Of a stretch of DNA of 64,000 nucleotides, positions 36,586-58,691 are shown one piece after another (positions within the stretch are counted from its first letter, which is position 1; each line of letters opens with the position of its first letter). The notes beneath the pieces were generated by a model. It was not told the origin of the DNA. It saw only the letters and a program-made list of their open reading frames with translations, and made no database searches. This DNA comes from Entoloma clypeatum (Eukaryota; Basidiomycota; Agaricomycetes; Agaricales; Entolomataceae), in contig OY751485.1 of assembly GCA_963565915.1 (NCBI GenBank), positions 5,208,001-5,272,000 on the forward strand. Direction: 5' to 3'. The translations under genes and the position numbers were made by a program.

Positions 36586-37684
36586 TATCCCCCTTCAAGA
36601 TTGCTGCTGCGATCTTCACTTGACTTCACGTGAGGAGATTGAAGTGGGAGGTCATGGTAGCCTCCAACAAATTCAGATTTTGAAGGATTGACCACAAAGA
36701 TTCATGGTCGTGGGTATAATCTGGAGTCTTTGGACTCCAATAGAATAAGAGAATAAATAATAATAATTTAGAATGAGTCGCCCTTGAGTCCATCAGGGGT
36801 CATTGGACCCCTCCCGATTATCGCCGGGGTTCCAACGGAGGTAGGGCAGCTCGTATCAAGTCGAATTTCAACTTGTTGTTGGACGCATGCCGAATCGTCG
36901 AACACGTGTGGTCACATGGTCACGTGAGGTCACAGGACCCCGTTGATTTGTTTGACCATTTATCGCTCATTGATAAACGAGCTTCTTGGTGATCACCACC
37001 ACCTTTCGAGGCTCTTCCATGAGCCTCGTCTCTCGTAGCTTGACGCCTACCTGCTTGATGACCGGGGCACGTTCAGTGCCAAGCGACGTTAGTTGCCCAC
37101 AGCCATCAAGATTTGTGGGTCTTCATTCACCAACACCGCCCCATTGCTAGCGTTCGTCATTGACGGACGACTCCTGGTCGAGGGGTGATTGTCGTCCCTC
37201 CATTCTCATCCTCGGTCGACTCCTTCGAGTCGACCTCGTCCGGCTACGCCTCGAGGAGGGCGAGCTTTGGCTCGACCTCCCACGTTTCATCGCAGTGACG
37301 CGCGGTTGGCGTCTATGACCAGTGCCTGGCACTGGTTGGTTGGGGACGCACAATTTGCGCGTCTCCACATCCGAGAAGGTACATGGTACCTTCCTCCTGT
37401 AGTGGGGACGACGCCATGGACATCATTTGTCGTCATTGAGGATATTTTGTTTGAGGGACGACTGTCGTCCCTCTAGGTTCCTCGTTTCCTATCGGTTGAC
37501 TCATTTGAGTCAACCTCGAGTCCTTGCATGTTGACGAGAGCGAGCTTCAGCTCGTACTAGTGTTGACTGCTCTGATATCCCCTAATGCCGTCCAACTGCC
37601 AGCGTTTATCAATGCACGGAGGCCTTGGACGCGCATTGTTGCGCGTCCCAGACATGCATCATTATGCATCGACTGGGTTTACAA
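36586..37684. other. Micro-hairpin array, segment 1 of element G interior
   Basis: Closely spaced short inverted repeats, all checked base by base. TGGAGTC-TTTG-GACTCCA is at 36722-36739 and AGGGGTC-ATTG-GACCCCT at 36795-36812. TGGTGATCACCA is at 36987-36998. Arms of 8 occur at 37007-37028 (CGAGGCTC, loop TTCCAT) and arms of 9 at 37214-37235 (GGTCGACTC, loop CTTC). Further hairpins are CCAGTGCC-T-GGCACTGG 37319-37335, AAGGTAC-ATG-GTACCTT 37376-37392, arms of 10 at 37453-37473 (GAGGGACGAC, loop T), arms of 9 at 37494-37515 (GGTTGACTC, loop ATTT) and arms of 8 at 37627-37648. Arm sequences differ, so this is not a simple tandem repeat. No gene. Confidence 0.85.
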
Positions 37685-37689
37685 AGGTA

Positions 37690-38090
37690 TGTTATGCTTC
37701 ACAAACTGTTCCAAGGTTTGGGCAGAGTATGCAGGAAGTGGAAAGGCAAAGAGCAATGTGATTGCTAAATCTAAGGAATCTACTACAGTACAAGAGGTTT
37801 ATATAGGTACTGACTATAGGCGGTAGCGGATGAGTCAGTACTGTGGAAGGCAGTGCACATGAGTAAGGTGACGGCGGAAGGCTATGTACAGTGAGTAAGC
37901 TGACTGCGGAAAGCGAGTCAGCACGGGAGCGAAGTATACTAAAGGGGATGACGAAGTAATGTAATGAGTCAGACTGGGAATGGAAGGTTGCGAAAGTAGA
38001 CATTAGACATAGTAAGTTCATAAGAGGGTGCCAAGTCGGGCTGATAAGTAAAAGATATGACGTGGTCCTCATACCATAGAGTCCATAACA
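37690..38090 (-). repeat. Gypsy B 3' LTR
   Basis: It is 401 bp, TGTTATG...CATAACA, followed inward by a purine tract (AGAGGGGAACA on the minus strand). Confidence 0.9.
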
Positions 38091-38124
38091 TGTTCCCCTC
38101 TTCAAGCTCTGTGTCCTCACAGAG

Positions 38125-38496
38125 TCACTGTCCCCATCCCTCGTTGTTGCCGGGATTGGACCAGTTCGGGCTCTCCTTGAGGCTCCAATCATATATCAAC
38201 TCCTCATTGATGGCTACGGCGAGTTCAAGGCCCTTGATGGCCAGCCGAATACGTCGATTTTTGATGATGAGGGTGCTGGTGTAGTTCCCGAGGATTTGTT
38301 TCTCTTCGGGAGTCAGGGCGACTGGGAGATTGGACAACGAATGAAGTCGGATAGTCATCTGGCGATGAAGGAGGTCGGTGAGGGAAGTTTTGAGGGCATG
38401 GATTTGGTCTCTCATGGAGAGCGCTTCGTTCATAAGGGCAGCAATAGCGGGGTTGATGTCGGTGGTGGAGGTGGAGGTAACAATGGTGTTTGACAT
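38125..38496 (-). CDS. Extra ORF after pol in gypsy B (ORF3), function unknown
   Basis: ATG 38496 to stop at 38125, 123 residues, between the pol end and the 3' LTR. It is about 90% alike to the ORF at 21496 in gypsy D over ~105 residues, then diverges because of a 7-base difference. Both begin MSNT with a T-rich run and contain DINPAIAALMNEALSMRDQI. It is leucine/isoleucine-rich and looks helical, with no zinc knuckle or signal peptide. Conservation of the frame in two copies with damage elsewhere suggests it is, or was, a real third gene of this family. Confidence 0.6.
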   Translation of the reverse strand: MSNTIVTSTSTTDINPAIAALMNEALSMRDQIHALKTSLTDLLHRQMTIRLHSLSNLPVALTPEEKQILGNYTSTLIIKNRRIRLAIKGLELAVAINEELIYDWSLKESPNWSNPGNNEGWGQ

Positions 38497-38629
38497 GGCG
38501 GTGAGGATGGTTGAGAAATAAAAGAAGAATGGGATGGCTATATTGGGCAGGGAAAAGACTAGAGCAGGGAACTCGATGTGTGGTTGACTGATGAGGTCAA
38601 TACTGCCATGGGTTTTGAGAACTTGTCTT

Positions 38630-41120
38630 TTATCGTGGACGAGACGGGTTCTGCTGATGGAAATCATGGATCAAATCTTGATCCCGATAGATCTTGGCTA
38701 ATCCTTCAGCTGACAATTCCACAGTTGTCAGGATGAGGTGAAGCATCTTCGAATGTCTATCCGTGATGACCAGAATTGTGTTTTTTCCATCAGATTCCAG
38801 TATTGGTCCCACAACATCGATTTCTATGTCTTCCCATGGGTGACTTGGTGCTGCGTGGGGGTGTGGCAGAGCATGTCGCTTCTGTCTGTTGATCTTGTTG
38901 CGTTGACAGGTGTCACAACCCTTTACGTACTTCTTCACGTCATGCAGGATAGTAGGCCACCAGTAGGTACGAGCGAGGAGTTCATGTGTCCGATATTGTC
39001 CTGGATGTCCAGCCACTGGTGCATTGTGTGATTCAAACATCAGTTCTTGATGCAGTTGTGGGTCTGGTGGAACATAGACTCGCTCGCCTGCATATGTGAT
39101 GCCGTTTTCCTGTTGATACCAATGAGGATTCTTCTTTAGACCCTGGGCTACTTCTGTCTCCATGCGGTTTGAACCCTTGATGTGTGCGATCCACGGATTT
39201 TCGATGGTCATGACATTTCCAATTTTGATGGAATCAGATGTTTCACCCCCTTCAAAGAATTGTTCCTCTGTGAACATCTCCATTTGTACCACATCTTCTG
39301 ATTCCAACCGTTTCAAGAATAGCCCCTCCTTGAGCATTTGGTCACTGTCTTGTGGTTCGAGTTCTGCTTCATACCAGGGTAAGCGCGACAGGATGTCCAC
39401 TTTTGCATTGGTCTTGCCGGGTACATGCCGTAATTCAAAGTCATAGTCTTGTAACTTTATTTTCCAGCGTCGCTGTCATTGAGTCAGGTCCTGAGGATGA
39501 CGGAAATATTCCAGGTTCTTGTGATCGGTCAAGATTTCGAAACGCTCCCTGGCTTCGAGCAGATAGTGTCTCCAATCTTTTAATGCTTCCATGACCGCCA
39601 GGAGTTCCTTGTCGTATATCTCATAATTCTGTTCGGCCGCGGACATGGTCCGCGACAAGAACACGATGGGGTGCCATTTGTCGTCTTGCTTCTGAGAGAG
39701 TACTGCTCCAATTGCATAGCCCGATGCATCGGTTTCAACCCTGAACTGTCCCTCTGATTTTGGTAATGCCAAGACCGGTGCCGATGTAATTGCCCTTATG
39801 AGACCTTCAAAGGCTTGCTGCTCTGTTGGTCCCCAAGTAAATGCCATACCGCCTGTGAGCGCGGTGAGAGGTTTTGCGATGTTTGAGTACCCTTCAATAA
39901 ATTGTCGATAGAAGTTAGCAAATCCAAGGAACTTCTGAACTTCCTTTTTTGATGTGGGTGCTCGCCAGTTTCGAATTGTATCCACCTTCTCAGTTTTTAT
40001 CTCGACACGTCCCTCACCAACCACATATCCCAATATGGGACATTTCGTTACTTCCCATAAACACTTCTTCTCCTTTAGGAACAAATCATTGTCCGATAGG
40101 ATCTGTAGGATTTCTTCAGTGTTTCGTGCGAGTTCTTCCTTGGTTTTACTGATAACCACGATGTCATCCATGTAGATCACGCAGATACATCGGCAGATCT
40201 GGTCCTGGAATAGACTAGCCATCATTTGAGAGAATGTTCCCGGGGAGTTGCAAAGACCAAAAAACATGACCAATGGTTCGAACAATCCTCAACTGGTGAG
40301 GAAGGCAGCTTTCCATTCATCACCCTCCTTAATCCGGACATTGTTATAGCCCCACATGATGTCCATTTTATTGAAGTAGACCACATCTTTCAGTACGTCC
40401 AAGAGATCGGATATTCGTGGGAGTGGGAACTTGTCTTTGACCGTGAATTTATTGACCATGCGGTAATCTTGTACCAATCGTTTGGAGCCATCCTTCTTGT
40501 TGATGAAGAAGCAAGGGGAGGCATAAGGGGATTTGGATGGGCGGATCTTTCCAGTTGTTAGACCCTCGTCAATGAATGCGTCCAATTCTTCTTGTTCCTT
40601 TTGCGTGTGGGAGTGACAGCTTCCAAGATCGGGTCTCCAGGCTTCCATTTCTGATCCGACTTTTTGGGTGCATCTTTGTCGCGCACCTCAACCATGCGAA
40701 CCCGGTGTTTGCAACCATCAAGGTTAACCCTGAAATCCGAGTGTTTGGTTCGACATGTTGTTGGGCACCGGTTAAATGTTACCGCGCCGGTTGTCCAATT
40801 GATTGTGGGGTTGTGGTGTACCAACCAGTCATGTCCCAAGAGCATGTCTGTTCTCCCAATGTCCAGTACCATTGCTTCCATGGTTTCCTGATGCGCTCCC
40901 TAATCCAGTTTGACTTCGGCAAGTCGGCTCGCTTTCTGTTGTCGATTTGGTGATCCATCCGCATTTAGAATTGCTATGGGTGGTATTCCTCACGTGGGGA
41001 GGTTCTGTTCGCGTACTATTCTGGGATGGATGCATGTGCGTTCACATCCGCTGTCAACCTCAGATCGGATAACCTTTGGTCCTCGTCGTGTCCTGAGCTG
41101 AGCTAACAGCCTAATCTCTC
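38630..41120 (-). pseudogene. Gypsy B Pol, stops and integrase-chromodomain deletion
   Basis: Segments in order on the minus strand: protease with D-S-G near 41050; the MLLGHDWLVHHNPTINW segment (40881-40558); RT (40648-40289; KKDGSKRLVQDYR, FNKMDIMWGYNNVRI); RT motif C and RNase H (40285-39476; [36 protein letters not shown]); integrase zinc module and first D (39400-38630; [37 protein letters not shown]). After [11 protein letters not shown] the frame jumps straight to DLIHDFHQQNPSRPR, the end of Pol. About 0.9 kb coding the second D, the E and the chromodomain (present in D) is missing, with a few shared bases at the junction. TGA at 40289-40291 and 39476-39478 replace CGA of copy D. Confidence 0.88.
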
Positions 41121-41261
41121 ATCTTTTCGGAGGTTTATCTCCCTTCACAATCTTAGTCGACGCAGCGGCTCGCTTGGCAGGGATGACATAGGTTCTTTTG
41201 TCTGCAGTCATACAAGGCAAGCAAGTCCGTTTAATAGATAAGGGTCGCGACTTAGTGTTGT

Positions 41262-42464
41262 TTAATCGGACCCTTCAGGAAAATCCTTCTCGTCGGCTTC
41301 TAAGATTGTGGTTTCATCATTCTCGGCATCTTCCTCGGACACCTTCCTAACCCTTCTGGAGTTCTTCTTCGGCTTGCGGCAGTTGCGCGCAATATGGCCT
41401 TCCTGGTCACAGTTGAAACACTTGCGACCATCTTTCTTCTTTGGAGCACTACAGTCTTTAGCCAGATGACCAAAGCGTTGACAGTTGTAGCAATGGGCTA
41501 CTCCTGCTTTGTCGATCTCCATGGCCTTGCCCTGACCACCATAAGTAGTACCCGATCCGGTGCGCATGTCGCCGCCACCTCAGATGACCAGTGCGTGTCC
41601 TTCCATCTGTCGTCCCTTGTTTCGGATCTCCTTTGCGTAATCGGTGTACGTCTTGCCATCGCTGGCCACTTGTTCAGAGATTCTGCGGTTGATGTTCTTC
41701 TCTAGGATGTATTTCCCAGTTTCTTTGCCAAGGTTTGACAACTTCAAGAGTTCTTCAAATTCATCCAAAAATTCATCAACGGTGCATTTCTCTTGTCTCA
41801 GGACTTCGAGTCTTGCTTTGGCAGCAACCGATTTGTTGGCAATGGAGAATTGTGTGGCGATATCATTGGAGAAGCCTAGCCAGGTGATATTCTCATTGTC
41901 AACAGCAAGAGCGTCTAACTTGTTACTGGCCCAGTGTCTGCCGGACCCTTCCATCATGCGGGATAACACCGCAAGAATCTTCTGATCATCTGTGAGGCTC
42001 TTTTGGAACCTGATGTATAGTTTGGTGGCTTTCCACCATTCGTCAAAGGTGTATCTGTCCTTGAACATCCCAGGATCCTTGATGATCTTGGATGTATCCA
42101 TTGTTTGTACAGCCGGAGCTTCTGCCATGTTTAGAGTCTGCGGAGGAGAAGAGGAGTCGGGTTGTTGGGATGAAGATGGGGTTCGGGATACAGGTAAGGA
42201 TTGAAAATGAGTCCCTGTTCTAGGCGTCTGTTCGATATCTGACTGCGCGGAGTCAAAAGTAAATTCGTCAGGGGACTCGTCGGCGGAATCGGTGGCAAAA
42301 CGTTCAGAGTATTTCCTCTGTAAATCTGTAAGGAATCTCTGTTCCTGCGCGTCTGTTGGTCTCGAGAAGCGGTCAAGTCTCTCGTTTCGTGCCCAGCGGT
42401 TGTACTCGGTTTGTTGTTCTTCAATGGTGAAGTGGGCGTAGATCTGCTGCTTCGAGTAAGACAT
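41262..42464 (-). pseudogene. Gypsy B Gag, single TGA before the zinc knuckles
   Basis: ATG 42464 to stop at 41262, 401 codons with a TGA at 41580-41582 where copy D has CGA. The N-terminus MSYSKQQIYAHFTIEEQQTE, lost in D's gap, is preserved here. The middle FDEWWKATKLYIRFQKSL Gag region is followed by two knuckles, CYNCQRFGHLAKDC and CFNCDQEGHIARNC, both with all four ligands. Capsid formation and RNA binding. Confidence 0.88.
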
Positions 42465-42859
42465 GATGATGTGGCTCTGGGACGTCTCGATGTGAGCGTC
42501 CTAATCAATCTTCTGATAACGGTTGTCTGGACACCAATAAACTCTCTGATCTCTGTGATCCGACCTGTCTGAGGTCCTTCTTGAACGCGAAAGCTTTCGA
42601 GTTCGTTCTGTCGGGCGTTGTAACGCGCGATGTGGTGTTGCCGAGCAAGATGGATGCTCTCTGCTATCTCGCCGTGGGGGCGATGCTCGTCGTTGTCTAG
42701 TTCTTCGTCAAGCACCTGCTGTAGGATGCGACGGATCTCCAATTCGATGTACTGCTGGATAAGCGTAAAATTGATACTGTCTCGAGGACTTAGCTCCTCC
42801 TGTCGGGCTTCTGGCATGCTGAATGGGTTACTGGTGAAGTCTTCAAAGAAGCGCGACAT
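42131..42859 (-). CDS. Upstream ORF in gypsy B overlapping gag (ORF0), function unknown
   Basis: ATG 42859 to 42131, 242 codons, starting ~60 bp after the inner LTR and overlapping gag in another phase from 42464. The first ~125 residues (up to the gag start) look protein-like: acidic and helical, e.g. FTLIQQYIELEIRRILQQVL, then EIREFIGVQTTVIRRLIRTL. The overlapping part is probably a by-product. It may be a separate small protein ahead of Gag or part of a Gag made by frameshift. The matching part of D is in the gap, so conservation cannot be tested here. Confidence 0.4.
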   Translation of the reverse strand: MSRFFEDFTSNPFSMPEARQEELSPRDSINFTLIQQYIELEIRRILQQVLDEELDNDEHRPHGEIAESIHLARQHHIARYNARQNELESFRVQEGPQTGRITEIREFIGVQTTVIRRLIRTLTSRRPRATSSCLTRSSRSTPTSPLKNNKPSTTAGHETRDLTASRDQQTRRNRDSLQIYRGNTLNVLPPIPPTSPLTNLLLTPRSQISNRRLEQGLIFNPYLYPEPHLHPNNPTPLLLRRL

Positions 42860-42906
42860 CTTGACTCGTCTGGTAGTTGCTCTCTTCGCTCTGGGCGAAC
42901 CTAACG

Positions 42907-42917
42907 AGATTTAGCAA
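42907..42917 (-). promoter_or_regulatory. Gypsy B self-primer-binding site
   Basis: Sense-strand TTGCTAAATCT, 2 nt after the LTR end, is an 11-nt exact complement of AGATTTAGCAA at 43002-42992 in the adjoining LTR. That start lies 34 bp downstream of TATATAAA (43036-43029). This is the Tf1-like self-priming layout. Confidence 0.72.
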
Positions 42918-42919
42918 CT

Positions 42920-43307
42920 TGTTATGCTTAACAAACCGTTCCAAGGTTCGGGCAGAGTATGCAGGAAGTGGAAAGGCGAAGAGCAAAGTGATTGCTAAAT
43001 CTAAGGAATGTAGCTATGGTACATGGGGTTTATATAGTACTGGCTACGAGCGGTAGCGAGTGAGACAGTAGCTGCGGAAGGCAGTGCGGATGAGTCTGTA
43101 ACTGCGGAAAGGCAGTGCGAAGTGAGTCAGACAACTGCGGACTGAGTAATCCCTACTGCGGAGTGCGAGTCAGCGTGGGAGCGAAGTATACTAAAGGAGA
43201 ATGGTAGAGTAAAGGTAAATGAATAAGCGGTCCAATGAGTCAAAGAAATAACGAAGGTACAATGCAAGGGAAAGGTGCGTAGCATACAAACCGGTAAGTC
43301 CGTAACA
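42920..43307 (-). repeat. Inner, diverged LTR of gypsy B (tandem LTR)
   Basis: It is 388 bp, TGTTATG...CGTAACA. Many differences from 37690-38090 in its middle part, while the outer LTR pieces at 43308-43478 and 49529-49733 match 37690-38090 closely. The junction at 43307/43308 goes directly into GGTTCGGGCAGAG, base ~26 of the next LTR. Confidence 0.8.
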
Positions 43308-43478
43308 GGTTCGGGCAGAGTATGCAGGAAGTGGAAAGGCAAAGAGCAATGTGATTGCTAAATCTAAGGAATCTACTACAGTACAAGAGGTTTATATAGA
43401 TACTGACTATAGGCGGTAGCGGATGAGTCAGTACTGCGGAAGGCAGTGCACATGAGTAAGGCGACGGCGGAAGGCTAT

Positions 43479-43912
43479 TGTAAGGGCAACCACTTTCACT
43501 TTTCACTTTTCCTTTACTTTCCTCCTTTCCTTTCTATTCCACCATCTCCGACGTCCTCCGATCGTATCCGCTGTCTCCGACATCTTATCCGCCTCTCCGC
43601 ATCCGACGACTCCGCCCCCATCCGCTACTCCGCACGTCGGATCGCAGGTACTATCATTCATCTTGTTTCCATTCATCCTTCATCGCTACTCCCGATCATT
43701 GCTCATCATTCATGCGTCTCGTTTTATCTCTTATTTCATATCTCATTTTACTATTTATCGCAGCTAGCTTGCAGGGGAATCCTTAGAACTTTCTCTTCAG
43801 ATCTCCCTTGCAAGGTATGTGTTGTATTACTTATTAGACTGCTCAATCTAAACTTCGGATCTCCCTTGCAAGTATCTGAGTTTGAGTCTTGGATCGTAAG
43901 GTCGCCCTTACA
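43479..43912 (+). repeat. Gypsy A 5' LTR
   Basis: It is 434 bp. TATTTAT at 43752-43758 lies 33 bp before the predicted transcript start AGAACTTTCT (43785-43794). Confidence 0.93.
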
Positions 43913-43914
43913 GT

Positions 43915-43924
43915 AGAAAGTTCT
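43915..43924 (+). promoter_or_regulatory. Gypsy A self-primer-binding site
   Basis: AGAAAGTTCT, 2 nt after the LTR end, is an exact complement of the predicted transcript 5' end AGAACTTTCT at 43785-43794. No tRNA 3'-end complement (TGG...) is seen next to the LTR, supporting self-priming. Copy C has the same site at 62909-62918. Confidence 0.72.
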
Positions 43925-43959
43925 CTTCTAATTGGACCGGGTCCGATTGCATCGTTGTC

Positions 43960-45234
43960 ATGATTCCGCGCTTCGGAGCAGCTTCTTCCGCGTCCGACTC
44001 CGATACATCTCACACCCCTTCCAGTTCTTCTAACTACCTCTCCGTAACTGGTGATTCTGCTCCGCGCATAGTAATGGACGACCCCAATCGCCTTGAACAG
44101 CTCGAGCACGAGTTCCAGGAACAACGTCAAACTCTCGCTGATATCTCAACTCAACTTGACCAACTCCTCCTTGCCTTCAACGCAATTCCTGCCCCAGCTC
44201 CGCCACCTATCCCACCTGCTCCCGCACCCGCTATTATACCCACTCCGATCGCTCCGGCCAATCCGGGCGTGCGTCGAGCAAAACCTGCCAATCCGTCGGA
44301 CTTCGATGGACTGCGCGCAAATGGCTGGACCTTTCTAAACTCCTGTGAATTGTTTATGGGGCTGGCTCCAGAACAGTTCGCAGATGACCACGCTAAAATT
44401 TATTGGGCTTTATCTTTCATGAAGAGTGGACGTGCAGCACGCTTTGCGGATCGCATTATCCGACAGGAGCGGAGGATTGGTGCTCCGCCTTATCGGACTT
44501 GGGTGGACTTCCGTGCAGTCTTTACAGCGGAGTTCACTCCGAAGAATGAGGAACAGGACGCGAGACTGATCCTCGAAGGAGAATCCTATTATCAAGGTCA
44601 ACGGGATGTCGAGACCTATATTGATGAGTTCAAAGACTACATTGACAAAGCGGGCTACCAGGAGGATACCAACATCATACTCAAATTCCGCCATGGTCTC
44701 CGTTCCGACATTCAGAACGAGATTGCCACCCTGACCCACGGACGACCTGCGGATGACAACCCCGATGAGTGGTACTCTGCAGCACGAGTCAATGACGACA
44801 ATAGGATTGCCAACAAAGCCTTCAAAGCCACTGCTCCGACCCGTACCTCCGCCTTCCGCAATGTTGTCGGACCAAGAGTACCTGGCACCTCAGTATTCCC
44901 TCGCCCCTACATTCCATTCACTCCACACACAGCTCCGCTCGCATCCGCATCCGCTCCGTCTCCGCCAACAAGGGACCCCAATGCAATGGACATTGATACT
45001 TCACGTGTCAAAGGCAAGAATGCCAATGCATGCTTCAGATGTAACAAAACGGGTCACTTTAGTCATGAATGCCCCCTTCGCTTCGACGTTCGCTTCATGA
45101 CAACGGAGGAGCAGGACGAGTTTGTTATGGAACAACTCGTGGTCAAGGACGCAGCGGAAGGCAACTCCGTTCCGCCCACGGAGTCTGCGGAGTCGGAGGG
45201 AGGACAGGAGGATTTTCCTCCCCACAGCGAGTGA
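43960..45234 (+). CDS. Gypsy A Gag, intact
   Basis: ATG 43960 to TGA 45232-45234, 424 residues. An N-terminal coiled-coil-like stretch (MDDPNRLEQLEHEFQEQRQT) and a proline-rich linker come first. The Gag/capsid region has GWTFLNSCELFMG and AEFTPKNEEQDARLILEGES. A single CCHC knuckle CFRCNKTGHFSHEC is followed by an acidic tail. It forms particles and binds genomic RNA. Pol lies in the -1 phase and overlaps the last part, so a -1 frameshift before 45234 is expected; no textbook slippery heptamer is evident at 45205-45230. Copy C lost this ATG (ATG to ACG). Confidence 0.9.
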   Translation: MIPRFGAASSASDSDTSHTPSSSSNYLSVTGDSAPRIVMDDPNRLEQLEHEFQEQRQTLADISTQLDQLLLAFNAIPAPAPPPIPPAPAPAIIPTPIAPANPGVRRAKPANPSDFDGLRANGWTFLNSCELFMGLAPEQFADDHAKIYWALSFMKSGRAARFADRIIRQERRIGAPPYRTWVDFRAVFTAEFTPKNEEQDARLILEGESYYQGQRDVETYIDEFKDYIDKAGYQEDTNIILKFRHGLRSDIQNEIATLTHGRPADDNPDEWYSAARVNDDNRIANKAFKATAPTRTSAFRNVVGPRVPGTSVFPRPYIPFTPHTAPLASASAPSPPTRDPNAMDIDTSRVKGKNANACFRCNKTGHFSHECPLRFDVRFMTTEEQDEFVMEQLVVKDAAEGNSVPPTESAESEGGQEDFPPHSE

Positions 45235-48200
45235 ACAGTGCGCCCTTGTTGTCTGCTAAAAATCATTATGCTGCCTTATTTATGGAACAATATGATCCTA
45301 TACCCTCCATCTCTAAGCCTGCAAACGATGCCATAGTCGCACCCAACTCCGCAAATCCCATCCGCCTTCGCCTCTCTAAATGGGAGTGTCGGCTTCCAAA
45401 ACAATATGTCCTCGCCTCCGCTCACTCCAACAATTCTATTGAACTAGACATAGTTCTTGAAACTACCGACACCAAAGACACACTATCACAAAAGGCCTTA
45501 CTCAACAGCAGGGCAACAGGGTCATTTATTGAACGCACTCTGGTCGAGAAACATCGACTCTCTACTCGAAAACTACAACGCGCAATTCCGCTATACAATA
45601 TCAACGGAACTCCAAACGAGGCCGGAGCAATAACGGAGGTGTTGGATGTAGTGCTCTGCTACCGGGATCACTCGGAACGGACCCAGCTTGCAGTCACAAG
45701 TTTGGGAAAACAAGAAATCGTGTTAGGCTTCACTTGGCTCAAGGAACACAACCCCGAGGTAGATTGGACATCAGGGGAAGTGAAGATGAGCCGGTGTCCT
45801 GCACGATGTCGGACATGCCACCAGGAGGCAGCCCAAGAGCGGAAGGAGTGGAAGTTTGAACAAGTCCGCATCCGAGCCTGTCGGATGGGTTCCGCTCCGA
45901 CGTCCGGTCTAGAGGAGGAGGCTCCACGTGGCCCATGGGTGGAGGATGTCACAGAAGGAGAGGAAGCGGAGGAGTTAGCGGATAACGAGGAGGAAGAGGA
46001 TGAGTTTGAGAAGGGAGACCGCCTTTTTGTCGGAACAGTACCCGCGGAGGCGGAGTTCATCCGTGCTTCATCCAATATCTCGCAACGTCTATCGGAGGCC
46101 TTCCTCAGTAACCAAAAACCTAAATCTTTCCGCGACTCTGTACCAGACCACTTGTTTGACTTTGAAGACGTATTCTCAAAGACCTCTTTCGACACCTTAC
46201 CAGAAGAGCGGACTTGGGACCACGCCATTGAACTTGTTCCGGACGCCTCTCCGGTGGGTTGTAAGGTATATCCACTTGCTCCGAATGAACAGAAGGAACT
46301 CAACGCGCCTCCGGAGGAAAACCTTGCAACTGGTCGAATCCGCCCTTCCAAGTCTCCGATGGCATCTCCGGTATTTTACATCAAGAAGAAGGATGGCTCC
46401 CTTCGTCTTGTACAAGACTACCGGTCACTCAATTCCAAAACTATCAAAAACAAGTATCCGCTTCCGCTCATATCCGAACTGATCAATAAACTTCAACGCG
46501 CTCAATACTTCACCAAGCTCGACATCCGCTGGGGCTACAACAATGTGTGGATAAAACCCGGAGACGAGTGGAAGGCTGCTTTTTGGACCAATCGCGGACT
46601 CTATGAACCATTGGTGATGTTCTTCGGCCTCACTAATAGTCCATCCACATTCCAGACTATGATGAACGAAATCTTTCAGGACCTTATCACTGAAGGTGTA
46701 GTCTGTGTTTACCTCGACGACATACTCATCTTCACGGAGACCCTTGCGGAGCATCGGAGAGTCACACGGATCGTACTGGAACGACTTCACAAACACAAAC
46801 TCTATCTAAAACCAGAGAAATGCGAGTTTGAACAAACGCGCATTGAATACCTAGGCCTTATTATTGAACAAGGACACGTAGAGATGGATCCGGTGAAGGT
46901 AGCGGGGGTCGCGGAGTGGCCTGCTCCGACAAACGTCCGAGAAGTACAGTCCTTTCTAGGATTCACTAACTTCTATCGCCGTTTTATTGAAGGGTTTTCG
47001 GACATCGCGCGCCCTCTTTTCGAGCTCACGAAGAAAGGGCACCTCTGGTCTTGGAAGGAGGGAGAAGTGTCCGCATTTGCGGAGTTGAAGCGGAGGATTA
47101 CATCCGCTCCGATCCTGGTCTTAGCTGATCATGGAAAGAAGTGGCGGATAGAAGCAGATAGCTCGGACTTTGCAACCGGAGCAGTACTGTCCCAACCAAC
47201 AGAGGATGGTAAGTGGCACCCTGTCGCATTCTATTCCAAAAGCCTTAGTCCGGTGGAACGCAACTACGAGATCTACGACAAGGAGATGTTGGCAGTGGTC
47301 CGCGCATTGGAGGAGTGGAGGCACTTCCTTGAAGGAGCGGAGAAGACAGTGGAGATTTGGACGGACCACAAAAATCTTGAGTATTTCATGACAGCTCAAA
47401 AACTAAATCAACGACAGGCTAGATGGTCCTTATACCTCGCTCGTTTTGATTTCAAAATGCACCATCGACCTGGCAAGTCAATGGGCAAGTCCGACGCTTT
47501 GTCCCGACGAGCGGACCACGGAGACGGATCGCGGGACAACGAAAACATCATCCTTCTGCGACCAGAATTGTTTGCAGTGCAAGCAATGCGGGGGGTAACT
47601 GTTCAAGGGGAAGAACGCGACGTCCTCCGCCAGGTCCGACAGGGAATCCGAGAGGGGTTACTGGAAGATAATGTGGCGGAGGTTGTCAAATCCCTTCCGA
47701 CCGTCGGAGCGGGATCCATCCGTAGTGCGGAGTGGAGGCAAGCGGAAGGTTTGCTCTACTTCAGGGATCGTATCTATGTTCCTAACAATCCCCAACTGCG
47801 TCATCGGATCCTCACACAACACCATGACACTCCGGTGGCCGGACATCCTGGACGGTGGAAAACCTTGGAACTGGTGTCGCGCAATTACTGGTGGCCGCAC
47901 ATGTCTCGTTTAATAGGTCAATATTGCAAGACATGCGACCCTTGCCTCCGCACCAAGGTCCGACGCACTCCGCCCTCCGGAGAGCTCAATCCGCTACCGG
48001 TCCCCACGGAGCGATGGCAAGTAACTAGTGTTGACTTCATTACTGAACTACCAGAAGCCCATGGCTACGACGCTATCATGGTCGTAGTGGACTCAGTAGG
48101 GAAGCGGGGACACTTCATCCCGATGCACTCCGACATCTCCACACTCGGGACTGCACGCTCCTATGTTCAAAATGTCTGGAAACTCCACGGACTACCGGAG

Positions 48201-48836
48201 GCCATTGTCTCCGACCGAGGACCACAGTTTGTTGCCAAGTTCACGCGCGAACTATACAGGCTGCTTAACATTAAGGTTGCTGCCTCAACAGCCTACCATC
48301 CGCAGTCGGATGGACAGACAGAGTGGGTCAATCAAGGATTGGAATAATACCTTCGCCTATTCGTCAATGAACATCAAGACGATTGGGACGAATGGCTTCC
48401 GATGGCTGAATTTGCATACAACAACCATGTTCACGCATCGACATGTCAAACTCCATTCTACATTGACACCGGCCGCCATCCGCGCATGGGATTCGAACCT
48501 TGCGAGAAGGGGACGGAGATTGAGGTGGTAGCGGATTTCAGCCAGCAGATGAAGTCCGGTCTAGAGGAGGCTCGCGCAGCACTGACAAAGGCAAAAGACG
48601 ACATGGCACGATACTACAACCAGCATCGGAGCACCACTCCAACATTCCGCCCAGGGGACAAGGTCTTTTTAGACTCATCAGACCTCAAAACCACCCGACC
48701 CACAAAAAAACTTGCACATCAATATGTAGGCCCTTTCCCAGTGGTCCGACCTGTCGGAACACATGCCTACGAACTTTGCCTTCCCCTTCCATGTCCCGCG
48801 TTCACCCAGTATTCCATGTCGTCAGACTTTCACTAG
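45069..48836 (+). pseudogene. Gypsy A Pol: mutated protease site, integrase stop
   Basis: The frame is open from 45069 (coding proper from about 45235) to TAA 48345-48347, and continues in phase to 48836. Protease: ALLNSRATGSFIE, i.e. N-S-R where aspartic proteases need D-S-G. RT: KKDGSLRLVQDYRSLN, FTKLDIRWGYNNVWI, VYLDDILIF. RNase [29 protein letters not shown]. Integrase: zinc module YWWPHMSRLIGQYCKTCDPC, then DFITELPEAHGYDAIMVVV, VSDRGPQFVAKF and AYHPQSDGQTEWVNQGLE, followed by TAA instead of Q (CAA to TAA). The rest (LFVNEHQDDWDEWLPMAEFA..., FRPGDKVFLDSSDLKTTRPT) ends out of frame at 48836. Copy C carries the same NSR and TAA. Confidence 0.9.
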
Positions 48837-49089
48837 TTCCCAACGACCCTTTCCAATGCCAAGTCCGCTCTCCTCTGCCTCCAACGGTAGTCGGAGAAGA
48901 ATTGGAGTACGATGTGGAAAACCTCTTGGACAGCTGACTGCATTGAGGCAAGCTTCAATTCTTGGTCAAATGGAAGGGATATGGCTATGAAGAGAATTCC
49001 TGGAGTAGTCCGTGACTTCTACCAACGTCATCCGGGAGCTCCGCGGCGGATCGCCGCCGCGATATTCGACTCCCTTGAAGGGGGGGTGA
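48780..49089 (+). pseudogene. Gypsy A chromodomain tail and polypurine tract
   Basis: After a frame change near 48780 the tail reads SRVHPVFHVV, then EELEYDVENLLDS-stop-LH-stop-GKLQFLVKWKGYGYEENSW, a chromodomain whose two TGA (48935-48937, 48944-48946) stand where arginine is expected. A polypurine tract (GAAGGGGGGGTGA, about 49077-49089) abuts the 3' LTR. Copy C shows the same stops. Confidence 0.8.
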
Positions 49090-49523
49090 TGTAAGGGCAA
49101 CCACTTTCACTTTTCACTTTTCCTTTACTTTCCTCCTTTCCTTTCTATTCCACCATCTCCGACGTCCTCCGATTGTATCCGCTGTCTCCGACATCTTATC
49201 CGCCTCTCCGCATCCGACGACTCCGCCCCCATCCGCTACTCCGCACGTCGGATCGCAGGTACTATCATTCATCTTGTTTCCATTCATCCTTCATCGCTAC
49301 TCCCGATCATTGCTCATCATTCATGCGTCTCGTTTTATCTCTTATTTCATATCTCATTTTACTATTTATCGCAGCTAGCTTGCAGGGGAATCCTTAGAAC
49401 TTTCTCTTCGGATCTCCCTTGCAAGGTATGTGTTGTATTACTTATTAGACTGCTCAATCTAAACTTCGGATCTCCCTTGCAAGTATCTGAGTTTGAGTCT
49501 TGGATTGTAAGGTCGCCCTTACA
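49090..49523 (+). repeat. Gypsy A 3' LTR
   Basis: 434 bp, near-identical to the 5' LTR. Confidence 0.93.
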
Positions 49524-49738
49524 GCTATGTACAGTGAGTAAGCTGACTGCGGAAAGCAAGTCAGCACGGGAGCGAAGTATACTAAAGGGGATGACAAAGT
49601 AATGTAATGAGTCAGACTGGGAATCGAAGGTTGCGAAAGTAGACATTAGACATAGTAAGTTCGTAAGAGGGCGCCGAGTCGGGCTGATAAGTAAAAGATA
49701 TGACGTGGTCCTCATACCGTAGAGTCCGTAACAAGGTA

Positions 49739-51011
49739 CATGGTACCTTCTATGTCAAATGGGGACGGCGCATGAGGCATTGTCCGTCGTTAATTAACGA
49801 CTCTCGTTCGGGGGGTGACTGTCATCCCCCTAGGTCCTATCTCCTGACTCATAAGTCAGTTCCTCTATGACAAGGTGCAGGGAATGTTAGGTTCCCTGTG
49901 GCAACTAGATGGTCATCTGATTGTTGAGGTATCAACGCAACGCGATGCAGGTTCCTTTGTACCTGCTTGGTATTTGTCGAGTATGTTGGGATACCTTGTA
50001 CCCAATTAGAGTACATGGACGGTGCCATCGGTGCCATCAATTCAATCACAATTTCTTCAACTAGAATGACATCTTGTGTTGTTTGCGAGATCAGTGGGAG
50101 ATGCTGGGGCAATTGCTACCCCATTTCCTCCCCTTCTTGCTTCATTCCTACTCTTGAAGCACATCTCGAGGGTCCCGAGTTGGCCCTCTTTTTGCCAGTT
50201 GGGGACAATCATTTTCCCCTGTCATGTTTCGCAACTTTTTCTTTTCCAAACGACGTGTTGTCGTTTTGGAAACTGGATGATATTACATCTCCAGTTTTGT
50301 TGGGAAGACCTTTTGAATTCCCCAGGTCTGTTTTCTGGACGACATTCATTGTCATCCAATGTTCTTTTCTCTTGTACTGACTTTGTGTCACTCATCCTCT
50401 GGGGATAATTTATCCCCCGTCATTTGCAACGACCTTTTCTATTCTTCCAGATGATGGTATATGTGTATGCCATCTTTATATTGGGGCTTATATTCCCCAA
50501 GTCGTGGTCCACAACTTTTCATTAAACAAACAACATATGTTCATTTTTTTTATTGGCGAGACTTTTGCCAAGTATATTATCTTTGGCAAGCTTAGCTCGC
50601 CATGTTGTTTGTTCATTTCTGGGGTTCGCAAGAATCCCCATGTTCACATGAACCTATCATAAACGACATGTTGTCGTTTCTATCTTTCTTCGGCATGAAC
50701 ATCTTTTGTGCCTTTTGTACAATGGTATCTTGGTATGCCATCTATATACATGTTGTATGGGGACATATAATCCCCATGTCGCGGTTCGTGACTCTTAGTT
50801 CAATGAACTATAGGCATTTTTGTTGGCAAGATCTTTTGCCACCTATACTTTCTTTGGCGAGCTTAGCTTGCCATATTGTCAGTTCATTTTTGGGGTTCAC
50901 GTTGATCCCCATGTCGTTCACATGAATGACAACTATACCAGTCTTTGTTACTGGTACTATATGAGACAACAACCCATTGTTATCATCAACTTCATTTTCT
51001 TAAATGACATA
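49739..51011. other. Micro-hairpin array, segment 2 of element G interior
   Basis: Examples: GTCGTTAATTAACGAC near 49786-49801; CTGACT-CATA-AGTCAG near 49844-49859; arms CAGGGAA/TTCCCTG near 49878-49898; GGGGATA-ATT-TATCCCC at 50401-50417; TTGGGG/CCCCAA near 50480-50500; GTTCA-CA-TGAAC near 50643-50654; AAACGAC-ATGTT-GTCGTTT at 50661-50679; TAGTTCA-A-TGAACTA near 50798-50812; TGGCAA-GATCTT-TTGCCA near 50824-50841; TACCAGT/ACTGGTA near 50936-50956. One occurs roughly every 30-45 bases. No gene recognised. Confidence 0.82.
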
Positions 51012-52633
51012 CAGTGACTCAAATAATTGTCTGGATGTTTGAGCCATTTTGATTGTTTGCTCAATAGCTCCAGGGCCAAGGCACACAAGACCAAAGTGTT
51101 GGTGTATGACAGATGGAGCTCTATTGTGGCTATAGAAATATTTAACAATTATGTAATTCCAATAAGTTCTCACAGAGATATATACAATCCAATCTGGTAA
51201 CTCATCCGGACAATTATTTGAGTGGGTATCAGAAATACAGAAACTGGTCATTTTAGTACTTGGTATGGCCCCCCTTTGTCTTGATTACTGCTTCCACTCT
51301 TCTAGGCATACTTTCTATCAATCTCTGACACACCTCTGGCTCTATTTTGTCCCACACCTCTGCTACCCTGTCCCAAATCTCCCAAACTCCCTTGGCCTGT
51401 GTTCGAAACTTGCAAAGCTCTACTTTGATGTGTTGCCAAAGGTGTTCAATAGGATTTAGATCTGGAGATTGTGGAGGCCAGTCCAGAAGAGTGATATCAT
51501 TGTTCTCCATCCAGATTCTGGCCTTGTTGGAGGTGTGCTTGGGGTCATTGTCCTGCTGGAATATGAGATCCTCTGCAGGAATCTCACATTCCTCCATGGT
51601 GGGCAATAAGTGGTTGTCCAGAATGTTCACATACTGGTCAGCATTCATCCTCCCCTCAACTTCTGCCAGTTGTCCCACACCATTCCAACTCATACACCAC
51701 CCCCATACCATGATGTTTCCACCACCAAACTTGACTGTTCCCTGGATCTCCCTCTCAATCAGCCCCTCTCCCACCTGTTTCCACACCCACTGCTTCCCAT
51801 CTGACCCCAGCCTGTTGATTTTTGTTTCATCTGACCAAACTACCCTCTTCCAGTCCTCCACAGTCCAGTCCTTGTGCTTTAAAGCAAAATCCAAATGCTT
51901 CTTCCTATGCCTTGTGGTAAGCAAGGGCTTTTTCTTCTTTGTTACAGCTTTGAATGAGTGTTTCTTGAGAACATTCCTCACTGTCTGTGAGCTGACTGGA
52001 TTGGAGATGATGGTGTTGATGTGTTTTGTTGCCTGAACAGTATTGGCAGGCTTTCCAGTGATAATTTGTGTAACGATAGAGCGCTGAGCATGGGCAGAAA
52101 GCTTTGAAGGCCAACCAGCAGAAGGAATTTGTCAAGTAGGAAGGAGATTCTGAAGGATATCAGATACTGTAGACTTGCCAACACCAACTTTGGAGGCAAT
52201 ATGTCAAATGGAATGATGGGTGGAGGCTAGAGAAATGATGTTTTCCTTCTGGGCAGAGGAGATGAGGTGCATGATGAATTGTGGAATGCTGAGAATATTA
52301 GCTCTGGTTATATAGCTTGAAATCAGGCACTACCTATGATAGCATCACTATAGTAACCATCTGCCAAGAGTTTGATGTCATAGGAACCATCTGGCATCAG
52401 ATTCTGATATTTCTGATTGTCACCCAAATAATTTTCTGGATGAGTTACCAGATTGAATTGTATATATCTCCATGGAAACTTATTAGAATTACATAATTGT
52501 TATATATTTCTATATCTACGATGTAGCTCCATCTGTCATACACCAACTCTTTGGTCTTGTGTGTCTTGCCCCTAGAGCTATTGAGCAAACAATCAAAATG
52601 GCTCAAACATCCAGACAATTATTTGAGTCACTG
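51012..52633 (-). mobile_element. Tc1/mariner element, complete, long TIRs
   Basis: It is 1,622 bp, flanked by TA (51010-51011 and 52634-52635). The ends CAGTGACTCAAATAATTGTC and its complement at 52614-52633 continue as inverted repeats of ~230 bp. Each end also has an inner, inverted copy of the outer motif (GACAATTATTTGAGT near 51208; ACCCAAATAATTTTCTGG near 52424), the IR/DR type of arrangement of some Tc1 elements. One transposase gene inside. Inserted in element G. Confidence 0.92.
51253..52272 (-). pseudogene. Tc1/mariner DD34E transposase with two TGA stops
   Basis: ATG 52272 to stop 51253-51255, 339 residues in one frame, the usual length for Tc1. The N-terminal HTH (HLISSAQKENIISLAST...) contains TGA at 52204-52206 and 52132-52134, both where R is expected (CGA to TGA). 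From 51981 to the end the frame is intact. The catalytic triad is visible: [17 protein letters not shown] and DLNPIEHLW, with 34 residues between the second D and the [14 protein letters not shown] is a Tc1 hallmark. It cuts and pastes at TA. The two early stops remove DNA binding, so it is inactive as it stands. Confidence 0.92.
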
Positions 52634-52635
52634 TA

Positions 52636-54310
52636 TTGTCATTTTTGTATCATAAATGACACATTGTCGTTTCTACTTTACTTTCGACGGTGTTGGTTCT
52701 TTGACTTCACACCGTCCTTTCTATTTTATTGCCAGAAGATACATGGTGCCTTCCTCATGTATTGTAGATGGCGCTATCGCCATCTATAGTCTCTTTGTGA
52801 CTATTTCATAGTACAGCCTTTAAGACTATAAGTTGGGAAGGGAAAAATCTCGTGTTGTGGGATTATGTGGTATGATATAGGTGTCGTTGTCACCTATTCA
52901 TCGGGGGAGGTGTCCCCTCCTCTGCCCCCTTCCAAAATGTTCCACGGGTTTCTTGGAATCCCTGCTTTCCCCCCTTCTTGCCTTGTTCACAATGAAACAA
53001 ATTATTGGGGGGAGGTTGAGTTTTTGAGACACTACAATTGTCTCGGAGGACAATTTCTATCCTCCACAGAATGTGGAAATGACAGACTCAGTGTCTGTCT
53101 ATTCTGTCAGATGGGTCTCTATGAGTCACCATCCATTATGAATTATATGGAGAACACTTGTGGTCCTCCCTCATCTCCTTCGGCAGGACTTTTTGGTGCC
53201 CTGCATGTCGCCAACTATATACTTGGCAAAACTCGACCTCTCGAGGCAACATAGTCACCTCAGGTTTTACGGAGAACACTTTTGTTCTTCCTTTTGTCAT
53301 TTCACAGCGACCACTTTTAGTGGGCTGCCTGTCACCAACTTTATGTTCGGTGCGATCTGATTCCAATGTGGTGTCTGTCACCACAGCTTTCAACAAACCA
53401 TTGCAGACAACAATAACCTTGTCGTCCACTCTCGTGACCTCAGCAACATCTGTTGCTACAGTTTTGGATCTATTGCCATAACTTTAGTTTCTCCATGGAC
53501 GATCTTTATATCATCCATTTTGTCACTTGCAACAACAATTGTTGTTGCTGTAGCTGCTACTGTAGCTGCTGGTTCTCGACTTTTGCAGATGGCATCCTTG
53601 TCATCTATTGTTGATTTATTGCAGATGACAACTTTGTCGTCTTCCTTTGCAACTTCAGCGACATTTGTCGCTGCTATCTCAGCACTTTGTGCTGTAATTA
53701 TATTATTTCCATGGACAACTTTCATGCCATCCACTTTGTCATTTGGGACAACTATATTTGTTGCCGCGGGCTGCCAGATCCTCTCTATTGCAGATGACAT
53801 CTTGTGTACTAAAGCTGCCAGATCCTCTCTATTGCAGATGACATCTGTGTCATCTATTTTCTGACCTTTAGCCGCAGAGTTTCTGCTCTCTTGGACAACA
53901 TTCCTTTCATCCTGTTTCTTGTGCTTTTGATGTTCTGACTTGCAGAGATCTTGTTTTTCAGGTGTGACTATTTGAAGCATCAAACGAACTTCACAAGTTT
54001 GTTCTCCAGTGGTCATGGCTTGACCACTCTGCTTCATTATGAAGCAAACAATCTTGTCATTACACTTAGAGCACAATTTTGTGCTCTCATCATCAGTCGA
54101 CACATGTTGTCGACTTTCGCTACTCTTGCAATGTTGATGGCGGCATTTTCATCGCCGTCTCTTCTTCTCTACTGTGACAGAGTCTTCTGTACTTTGTCTC
54201 TCTTTCTCATCGTCTCTTTGATGGTGAATATTTTACCGTCGATTATCATTATCACCTGGGTTATGTTGACCCAGATGTTCGCATTTATTTCGATGATCTT
54301 GTTGTTGTTG
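52636..54310. other. Micro-hairpin array, segment 3 of element G interior
   Basis: Examples: AGATGGCG-CTAT-CGCCATCT at 52766-52785; ATAGGTG/CACCTAT near 52876-52897; GACAGAC-TCAGT-GTCTGTC at 53081-53099; AGCAAC-ATCT-GTTGCT near 53441-53456; the 20-bp palindrome GCAACAACAATTGTTGTTGC at 53529-53548; CAGCGACA-TT-TGTCGCTG at 53656-53673; GATGACA-TCTG-TGTCATC near 53837-53854; AGAGCACAA-TT-TTGTGCTCT at 54068-54087; GTCGACA-CATGT-TGTCGAC at 54096-54114. On the minus strand 53456-54103 is open for 215 codons with a recurring D-D-K-x-x-I-C unit. That may be a relic gene or a by-product of the hairpins. Confidence 0.82.
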
Positions 54311-54808
54311 ATAGTGTTTTGAAGTCCAGTCTCAAAGACCTAGAACTGAACCAGAACCAGACTGGTAAAGACTGGTGAAAGACTGGACTGCAGTCTCAAG
54401 TTTCAGAATTTTGAGGATTGACCAGTCTCAGGTTCTTCAAATTTTGGAAAAAAAGAAGACTGGTTTAACACCAGTCTTGATTTTAGACTCAAAAAATGTA
54501 AACTGGTCATAGGTTCACACAGGTTCTTATAGGTTCACATAGATTTGTTCATCAAAGCTTCTATAAAATGTTTTGAAATGTGTCATAAATGATATTTTGA
54601 AACAGTTTTAATGAATTGGAAGATACCAGTTTAAACCAGTTCGAACTAGTCCTGGTTTACTTGTTTGAGAAAGGAAAGACTGGTCCACCAGTCTTTGACC
54701 AGTCCAGTTCTAATTTCAGTTTTTTGACGAAACCACTCAACCAGTCTTGGTTCTAGGTCCTTAATTTTTTGGGCAAAAAACCGGACTGGACTGGACTTTC
54801 AAACACTA
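54311..54808. mobile_element. hAT-type MITE, copy 2, intact
   Basis: It is 498 bp, TAGTGTTTTGAAGTCCAGTC...GACTGGACTTTCAAACACTA, flanked by GTTGTTGA (54303-54310) and GTCGTTGA (54809-54816), 7 of 8 matching. It is highly similar to the split copy at 2714-9002 and defines where the copia element entered that copy. No coding sequence. Interior crowded with ACCAGT/ACTGGT motifs. Confidence 0.92.
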
Positions 54809-54816
54809 GTCGTTGA

Positions 54817-56166
54817 TAATGAACCTGTTGTTCGTTACTCACAGTCCAATGTGGTCTATTTGACCCATCATTTCTGGGCAATGAGATCTTTTCATCTTGA
54901 GGGTTATTAGAACCCTCTTGGCTACGATTTTTGTGTGGGCAACAATTCTGTCGCCATGGTTTCTGTGAACTTCCAGCCCATTTTGGGCTCTTGCCATGCA
55001 TTCGCAGTTGACGGCATCTTTCAGACCACAAATGTGGTGCTGATTCTTCTGTTGAGGGTAAAGGTACCCTTGGAACTCTTGTTTCCATTGTTGGTGGTCA
55101 CATTCTATGGGTTGGTGGTGATTTAGCAACCCATTCTGACCGCCATGAAGGCAGTTGATCTGCCTTTGACAAAGGTCTTTGAATTTCAAGACCTTCTTTT
55201 GAAGTTGACGGAACTTGTGTTCCATCAAGACTGTCTAGGTCTCTTTTGCAAACAGGACCTATGGAGTCTTTACTCCATATTTTGAGACAGCTGTTGTTGT
55301 CTTCCTTCGCCGTTTTCAATTCGGTGATGATTTCTGGAGTCTCTTCATTGACTCTGGAGGAGGTTATTTTAACCTCTGTTCCTTGATTCATATTAATGAA
55401 AATGTTTCCGTTCTCTTCTTTAGACTCTTTGAGAGAGTTGGAAGACTTAGAAGTCTTCCATTCTAGTCTGTTGACTACATATCATGGACTTATTGAACTT
55501 TCAATTGAAGACTTAATAGTCTTCACTTCTTCACAATCCACTTTGGAGTGGTGGTCAACACCATCTCCGTGGTTCAGAAGTTGATGAGGCTCATAAGCCT
55601 CATGGTTTCTTTCTGCGACAATATCTTGATGTTGCGTGGCTTCTCTGTTTGAAGACATAACTGTCTTCATATCTCCGTTCTGTTGACCTTCGCAACTCTG
55701 CGAATGGTATCTCAATACCAAATTCTCGGTTCGACATGTGTTGACTGTGACAAGGCAGTCAAGTCCACCCTAGTAGACTTTGCTACATGTAATATAGTAC
55801 TTGCAAAATATGTAGACGAGGTCTCCAGTTTGCAACAACTGGACCTCAAGTCTTTTGAGAGGCTTCTCGACACATTCGACGCAATGGAATGGCTCGGAAA
55901 TGAGCCATTTCCATATAAGGAAATGCCAGCTGGCAGCAAAGGTGCCAGCTCATCCCGAAAAAGGGAGCTCTGAGTGAACTCCTGGGGGCCAGACAACTCA
56001 AAGGATGCCATAAGCTGTGTGTAGGTGACACAGCTAGGCACTAAGCAAAAGAGGAGGCTTCTAAGTGAAGCCTCTGGGCCGGATGGGGTTGGTGCAGCTA
56101 GAGAGCTGATAGCAATGGGGGTGTTCCCCTGTAGCAGTTGATAGCAGTTAAGGATAGCTTAAAAAA
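54817..56166. other. Micro-hairpin array, segment 4 of element G interior
   Basis: Examples: GAGGGTT/AACCCTC near 54898-54916; GAGGCT-CATA-AGCCTC near 55587-55602; GAAGACA/TGTCTTC near 55652-55670; GGAAATG-AGC-CATTTCC at 55896-55912; GAGGCTTC-TAAGT-GAAGCCTC at 56054-56074. Frames of ~100-130 codons exist on the minus strand (for example 55712-56041, 54839-55228) with no recognisable domain. Confidence 0.78.
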
Positions 56167-56825: not shown

Positions 56826-56830
56826 CTGAC

Positions 56831-58690: not shown

Positions 58691-58691
58691 G

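Follow-up and report, generated by a model that had tools for sequence, protein, structure and literature searches.

The locus described here raises the question of why the interior of a transposable element should be filled with closely spaced short hairpins, and whether such a texture reflects selection or a mutational process. It lies within a 64,000-nucleotide stretch of the Entoloma clypeatum genome (contig OY751485.1, positions 5,208,001 to 5,272,000), referred to below as the window, and belongs to element G, which is bounded by long terminal repeats (LTRs) at 36403..36585 and 56167..56350 and interrupted by nested inserts. With a probability of about 60%, we consider G to be a non-autonomous LTR retrotransposon with a selected, distributed structure, which shares with a second family of this genome, named H, both the termini (LTR ends and purine tract) and the texture of hairpins.

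Hairpin tiling of elements G and H

Perfect inverted repeats (arms of at least 6 nt, loops of 0-8 nt, non-overlapping) were counted in the four segments of the G interior and in 60 dinucleotide shuffles. Together, the segments contain 64 of them versus about 10 expected, and the subset with arms of at least 8 nt comprises 28 versus about 0.5. Segment 1 (36586..37684) carries 13 versus 1.9 in the shuffled sequence (arms of at least 8 nt: 7 versus 0.08), segment 2 (49739..51011) 13 versus 2.3 (3 versus 0.08), segment 3 (52636..54310) 17 versus 2.7 (8 versus 0.18), and segment 4 (54817..56166) 21 versus 2.8 (10 versus 0.12), which places the arm >=6 counts far above the shuffles (z = 8-12). The first-pass annotation of this DNA had described a dense array of short inverted repeats in the interior of G, which these counts bear out, and the four examples that it named are exact, i.e., 37214-37235, 37494-37515, the 20-bp palindrome at 53529-53548, and 37453-37473 (arms of 10 nt, 1-nt loop). 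The proposed spacing of one hairpin every 30-45 bases was somewhat too dense, as with a definition close to the original one (arms of at least 5 nt, loops of 1-7 nt) we measured one per 45-75 nt (61, 75, 58, and 45 nt in segments 1-4; shuffle expectation 5.7-8.9 hairpins per segment). In both families, the stems are 6-11 bp long and the loops mostly 3-8 nt; in the G copy C2a, loops of 0-8 nt are strongly enriched and the excess nearly ends at 9 nt, with four cases at a loop length of 12. No Rfam family reached its gathering score in the window.

The supposition that the array belongs to G and not to its inserts holds for two of the three inserts compared. The array is absent from the nested Tc1-like element (51012..52635, bounded by terminal inverted repeats; 3 inverted repeats versus 3.6-3.8 expected, i.e., background) and from the nested LTR element or elements B with further inserts (37690..49733; near-background density, with 4-9 inverted repeats versus 4.7-5.6 in four 3-kb windows), around which an AGGTA duplication was recognized by eye (37685-37689 and 49734-49738). 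The 506-nt insert at 54311..54816, resembling a miniature inverted-repeat transposable element (MITE), is mildly high (4 versus 1.5-1.7; arms of at least 8 nt: 2 versus 0.17). The names Tc1-like and MITE-like are those of the first-pass annotation. In the flanks (1-15000 and 56351-64000), the hairpin z ranges from -0.9 to 2.6.

G copies and fragments, many of them decayed, are distributed across the 60-Mb genome, with at least 33 matches to the LTR and at least 46 and at least 27 matches to two interior segments. All 30 G pieces from the fetched loci and the window carry hairpins with arms of at least 6 nt, at 2.0-18.7 per kb, 23 of them above 8 per kb. When the window and the fetched loci were counted together (five overlapping loci being left out), hairpins with arms of at least 7 nt numbered 689 in 94,992 G bases (7.25/kb) versus 120 in 158,681 other bases (0.76/kb).

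From the differing arm sequences it had been concluded that the array is not a repeat. The diversity is confirmed, but some stretches of the array arose by old duplication and have since diverged (62-71% identity in the longer matches, offsets of about 170-650 nt), as exemplified by two three-hairpin units of a diverged tandem part, at 37170..37285 and 37445..37557 (alignment A1). Diverged three-hairpin tandem units with a GAGGGAC stem, a GGTCGACTC stem, and a CGAGC stem were also observed at L012:1386-2455 and L029:1773-2373, in two of the fetched loci.

Family H was located by a genome pattern search with the tract-plus-LTR-end motif of G, allowing up to one mismatch, which gave 20 sites (reversed control: 0). 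Six of them carry AAGGGGGGTATGTAAC and lie outside the list of G LTRs, each with an adjacent match to the same 3' open reading frame (ORF). Two H loci were fetched (L033 with L035, and L034), and in the former the LTRs are 95% identical over 187 nt and about 9 kb apart. Pfam searches of the minus-strand ORFs of H revealed RVT_1 (2.6e-24), RT_RNaseH (1.6e-23), and Integrase_H2C2 (8.6e-19), as well as a Tf2-type SH3 match below the cut-off, while the integrase core had no Pfam match in the ORFs scanned. A gag-like ORF of 331 amino acids (aa) and two 3' ORFs, one of 436 aa and one truncated at the end of the fetched sequence and thus of at least 308 aa, are also without a Pfam match; for the 436-aa protein, a single relative was found, which comes from a JGI source (42% identity over 77%). 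Judging from its reverse transcriptase (RT), RNase H and integrase zinc domains, H is a Ty3/gypsy element. Among 101 scored RT candidates, nine are 85-100% identical to that of H and the next is 38% identical; in the viral contigs, no relatives of the H RT or of P0001 were found. G and H agree at the LTR ends and the tract and, beside the latter, over about 40 nt that contain a hairpin; a comparison of two G ORFs with four H ORFs other than RT and integrase revealed no significant similarity. At L009:8334-8957, a gag-like ORF, 55% identical to that of H over 189 aa, is localized directly behind a G LTR, and no hairpin with arms of at least 6 nt was counted in this stretch.

In the H part L035 (6,112 nt), 21 hairpins with arms of at least 8 nt were found versus 0.48 in shuffled sequence, each of four sub-regions exceeding all 60 shuffles. 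Synonymous-codon shuffling of eight H ORFs gave 0.97 such hairpins versus the 22 found, and four control ORFs of three other elements of the window contain none. It was shown in this way that the tiling of H lies inside gag-like and pol coding sequence and is independent of protein and codon usage, and that the tiling of both G and H is far beyond chance. Perfect H stems overlie, for example, the codons for IRSKIDLM, FEQVRVRI, VAKNAFAT, and CRTCESC, which we take to be motifs of the RT and of the integrase zinc finger. By comparison, four Ty3-type loci of this genome outside H, with RTs 37-38% identical to that of H, have 0, 0, 0, and 1 hairpins with arms of at least 8 nt versus 0.12-0.25 expected; a fifth stretch, L014, has 2 versus 0.25, but is partly G itself. 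For arms of at least 7 nt, the density in H is about 5.9/kb (8.4/kb on the 3' ORF side versus 4.7/kb in the remainder), so that G, at the 7.25/kb given above, is denser. A distant relative of the 3' ORF (25% identity), L042:1143-2280 (G000:C13:797656-798643), contains 7 hairpins with arms of at least 8 nt versus 0.33, which suggests that the hairpin trait may be older, although this decayed locus is of mixed content.

Architecture and coding capacity of element G

The two LTRs of G (183 and 184 bp) are direct repeats, about 95% alike (184 columns with 10 mismatches, nine of them transitions, and one gap column). The copy at 36403..36585 starts with TGTAAC and ends with GTTACA, and its first 18 nt form a 6-6-6 hairpin; given a minus-strand reading of G, it would be the 3' LTR and the copy at 56167..56350 the 5' LTR. 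Target-site duplications, CGTTC, are present at 36398..36402 and 56351..56355. On the minus strand, the polypurine-tract-like sequence GAAGGGGGATA directly precedes the 3' LTR (36586..36596), and the junction of GAAGGGGGATA and TGTAAC occurs in G and, one change apart, in H. G thus displays the direct LTRs with TG..CA ends and the short target duplication of an LTR retrotransposon, together with a putative polypurine tract, and is almost certainly an LTR element of Ty3/gypsy kinship. Inspection by eye found no tRNA-like TGG start of a primer-binding site beside the 5' LTR on either strand. G probably reads on the minus strand, because the purine tract precedes the LTR there and the copies have minus-strand ORFs of up to 482 codons. 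The G copy of the window lacks about 0.5-0.9 kb (at positions 870/871 of segment 4) that is present in most of the fetched copies spanning this point.

The minus-strand open frames of individual G copies comprise 482 codons, four overlapping or neighboring frames (434+287+195+220), and 336+328+223 codons. The 482-codon frame exceeds the maximum of 204 in 300 shuffles of the region, and its codon-position composition lies beyond all 300 shuffles, as in the gypsy genes of the window; in its N-terminal half alone, the signal is not above all shuffles. Compared with nine other copies, its ratio of non-synonymous to synonymous polymorphism (pN/pS) is 0.37-0.65, lower on average than in the other two frames (0.59-0.86 and 0.34-1.15), but the ranges overlap. 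Against minus-strand coding speak open frames on the plus strand of two G copies (262 and 233 codons), which also exceed all 300 shuffles of their regions (252 and 222), the latter frame being strongly periodic; they are taken as the back of the minus-strand gene or of its composition. Within the window, stop-free minus-strand stretches of 230 codons (53459..54148) and 148 codons (55715..56158, the N-terminal part) mark the orphan ORF region in segments 3 and 4, both without a Pfam match (the former: none above the cut-off). No long ORF was found in segment 1, segment 2 has no convincing minus-strand ORF (a plus-strand 150-codon frame there has no Pfam match), and the other half of G likewise has no convincing long minus-strand frame.

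Seven G open frames gave no Pfam match above the cut-off, thus revealing no pol of its own, and a search of 5.8 billion proteins with the 482-aa frame retrieved nothing at E <= 0.001. G is regarded as encoding a putative orphan protein in its minus-strand first half, and the idea of a purely non-coding element was dropped once these ORFs emerged. The first-pass annotation had recognized neither gag nor pol; this remains correct for the G frames tested, but not for the sister family H, in which the same texture accompanies pol and a gag-like ORF.

Selection or mutation as the source of the array

G copies that are 80-96% identical differ mainly by one-sided changes, and of 293 one-sided changes counted among copies, 242 are transitions. 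For 118 hairpins with arms of at least 7 nt, 758 ungapped comparisons yielded 264 intact hairpins and 256 with one broken pair. It had been proposed that arms mutating independently, with no compensatory pattern, would argue against selection, and in part this is what was found, as one-sided changes prevail and compensatory pairs are few. The one-sided changes are the post-insertion decay of dead copies, and since independent arm mutation is expected of such copies, it has no bearing on the replicating phase.

The two phases can be separated by distinguishing variants shared by at least two copies from private ones, in columns with at least five rows and no CpG in any copy (columns in hairpins of only one copy being left out). 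Shared variants occupy 40 of 1489 arm sites, 30 of 418 loop sites, and 187 of 3135 sites elsewhere, while private variants occupy 148, 48, and 308 of the same sites, respectively. In arms, shared variants therefore occur at about half the frequency found outside, and private ones at an equal frequency. With the arm labels shifted circularly, none of 2000 shifts gave a shared ratio as low (private variants: p = 0.30), and each half of G, taken alone, shows a depletion in the same direction. With columns up to 5 from a gap dropped, it is weaker (30/1021 in arms versus 110/2222, p = 0.009). These data support the conclusion that arm changes were removed while the lineage replicated and that neutral decay followed integration. 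Of the explanations proposed in the first-pass annotation, structural selection accordingly has the strongest support, from the scarcity of shared variants in arms, and we consider it likely that the array is under selection.

A number of results weigh against this reading. After removal of the gap-adjacent columns, the difference between arms and loops is not significant (p = 0.14). Shared double changes occur in none of 709 non-CpG pairs and, with CpG sites included, in 12 of 854 pairs versus 5 of 1140 slid pairs, so that compensatory changes are few; among the internal units that have diverged, taken without redundancy and after exclusion of 27 gapped hairpin comparisons, 16 double changes were counted versus 10 in slid pairs, which is no clear difference. 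There is no clear wobble bonus, as fixed mismatches on the plus strand comprise 16 G-T and 17 A-C; the shared sense G-U:A-C ratio of 12:4 is accompanied by 22:14 in slid pairs, and the diverged units reverse the bias (plus-strand G-T 37 and A-C 17; slid 50 and 31). Sense and antisense strands fold equally; apart from 5' arms rich in G and a bias toward C-G as the closing pair, the hairpins have no specific motif in common; and the H gag-like ORF is not significantly similar to either of two G ORFs. Matched double changes are enriched over slid pairs in redundant comparisons, which count copies many times (93/1621 versus 28/2374 at 60-72% identity; 196/22602 versus 57/25032 at 86-91%), but covariation was rejected as a proof of structure, since the enrichment is unclear in the non-redundant set and gone after CpG exclusion. 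The assignment of a strand by wobble and folding was likewise given up, as no asymmetry was found. In favor of a selected structure, the local fold z is about -3 for G and -1.9 for H versus -0.2 and -0.5 for two other LTR elements.

As G and H are alike in texture with little common sequence beyond the termini, a common function or process in the replication cycle is indicated. In the proposed mechanism, the hairpins would act while the element is single-stranded during replication, as genomic RNA or first-strand cDNA. They would provide numerous scattered structural sites that can stand in for one another, with the Gag of H-like elements as the most likely binding partner. Such binding would serve condensation and packaging, and G, in which no pol was detected, would be carried in trans by H-like elements. 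Gag binding is favored because additional sites would benefit a pol-less element that relies on a helper, and the hairpin density is higher in G than in H; as the specific function, packaging is nonetheless only tentatively predicted. More speculative still is a second structural code over the whole Ty3/gypsy genome, with a hairpin every 50-200 nt as an interchangeable Gag site, set through synonymous and non-coding positions, which a pol-less parasite would have amplified in order to compete for packaging; G would then have kept only the termini and the code, competing without sequence similarity to its helper.

A serious rival, though an improbable one on balance, is fold-back template switching, in which the RT of this lineage would often fold the nascent strand back and copy a neighboring stretch, thus writing or perfecting hairpins as a by-product balanced by decay. 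Template-switch mutation and quasi-palindrome correction yield perfect short hairpins, and the stems found here are perfectly Watson-Crick paired, with loops mostly of 3-8 nt and a few of up to 11-12 nt, and without wobble or strand preference. The density is also higher where protein constraint is presumably weaker (the 3' ORF side of H), and one or two hairpins, such as a 7-bp stem in C2a, appear by eye to be newly written in a single copy. However, arm copying should often make matched pairs, whereas shared variants are depleted in arms and double changes are few; of the double changes among diverged units, 15 of 16 are transitions, compared with 54 of 91 single changes. Moreover, wholesale copying would tend to damage the presumed RT and zinc-binding motif codons that the hairpins overlie, very few hairpin gains were seen by eye among copies, and template switches are known as sporadic events, not as a source of continuous, constrained arrays.

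The same constraint data would fit a structure selected for another purpose, e.g., silencing escape or tuning, nuclease protection, or translation control, which appears somewhat less probable again. Genome-wide ordered RNA structure is known in RNA viruses, and stems of 6-11 bp are too short as ordinary Dicer substrates, so that they would suit Dicer avoidance; the denser array of G would be more naturally explained by competition for packaging. Selection at the DNA level, on cruciforms or single-stranded cDNA, is unlikely. It would account for the missing G-U bonus and strand asymmetry, but that evidence is of low power, the loop and closing-pair preferences are also typical of RNA hairpins, and in 54 of 123 hairpins the first loop base of the sense strand is A, possibly a strand-specific hint. 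An origin of the array in chance, in base composition or low complexity, or in codon usage is refuted by the dinucleotide and synonymous-codon shuffles; nothing was found in its favor, and it can practically be dismissed.

Several other elements were observed beside these families. L008, L029, and L030 were considered as a sister family and rejected, since what they have in common is a segment, about 1.3-1.7 kb long, that includes a captured piece of G; here, an element resembling a DNA transposon with terminal inverted repeats (ends by eye; L029:1311-3026, L030:2019-3269, and L008:921-2618, copies 94-95% identical to one another) appears to have captured and spread a piece of the G array. A hairpin cluster outside G, with CACATGTCTATAAACATGTG and others (six with arms of at least 7 nt in about 195 nt), is located at L012:4981-5174 in an apparently different element inserted within a G copy. 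A fold-back-like element at L030:3276-3732 has palindromes based on GGTAAATTACC, and a degenerate tandem repeat of about 20 nt, of the GGGCCGTTGGGCATGAGAGA type, is found at 34473-34719 of the window, with similar stretches in several fetched loci.

Relation to known systems and significance

The closest known counterparts of G are large retrotransposon derivatives (LARDs, e.g., Sukkula) and terminal-repeat retrotransposons in miniature (TRIMs), reported to be pol-less LTR elements with assumed trans mobility and well-conserved RNA secondary structure (PMC7215508). G is alike in its LTRs without pol, presumed movement in trans, and conserved structure, its hairpins being common to the copies and constrained in the manner of a LARD-type internal region. 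Unlike LARDs, which lack coding capacity, G copies carry a long orphan ORF, and unlike both LARDs and TRIMs, G consists of many perfect short hairpins, a texture that recurs in a pol-bearing Ty3/gypsy family. With Ty3/gypsy elements (Metaviridae), H has in common the RT, RNase H and integrase zinc domain, the LTRs, and the purine tract, and G the LTR ends and the tract; unlike H and G, the remaining Ty3-type loci that were tested here carry no hairpin arrays.

In the Ty1 and Ty3 genomic RNAs, stable, highly structured regions are reported to make up to 30%, and the Ty3 RNA to be a mosaic (PMC11381356), in contrast to the continuous perfect-hairpin array of G and H. In packaging-signal-mediated assembly (PMC6281560), dispersed stem-loops share a coat-protein recognition motif; G and H resemble such RNA-virus genomes in having dispersed stem-loops within a protein-coding genome, but are LTR retroelements with perfect stems, in which no such motif was found. 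Conserved RNA structure in pol-less LTR elements and structured regions of Ty1 and Ty3 RNA are known already, and no LTR element with a comparable hairpin array was found in the open-licence literature, judged by titles and the beginnings of abstracts.

To our knowledge, the marking of LTR-retroelement RNA for packaging and the competition of pol-less elements are poorly understood outside a few models. If the origin of the array were mutational, it would be an uncommon instance of a polymerase that writes hairpins across its own genome. As a presumed helper-parasite pair, G and H have termini and texture in common, with little other detected sequence beyond about 40 nt at the 3' end, and would make the packaging question testable via binding and probing.

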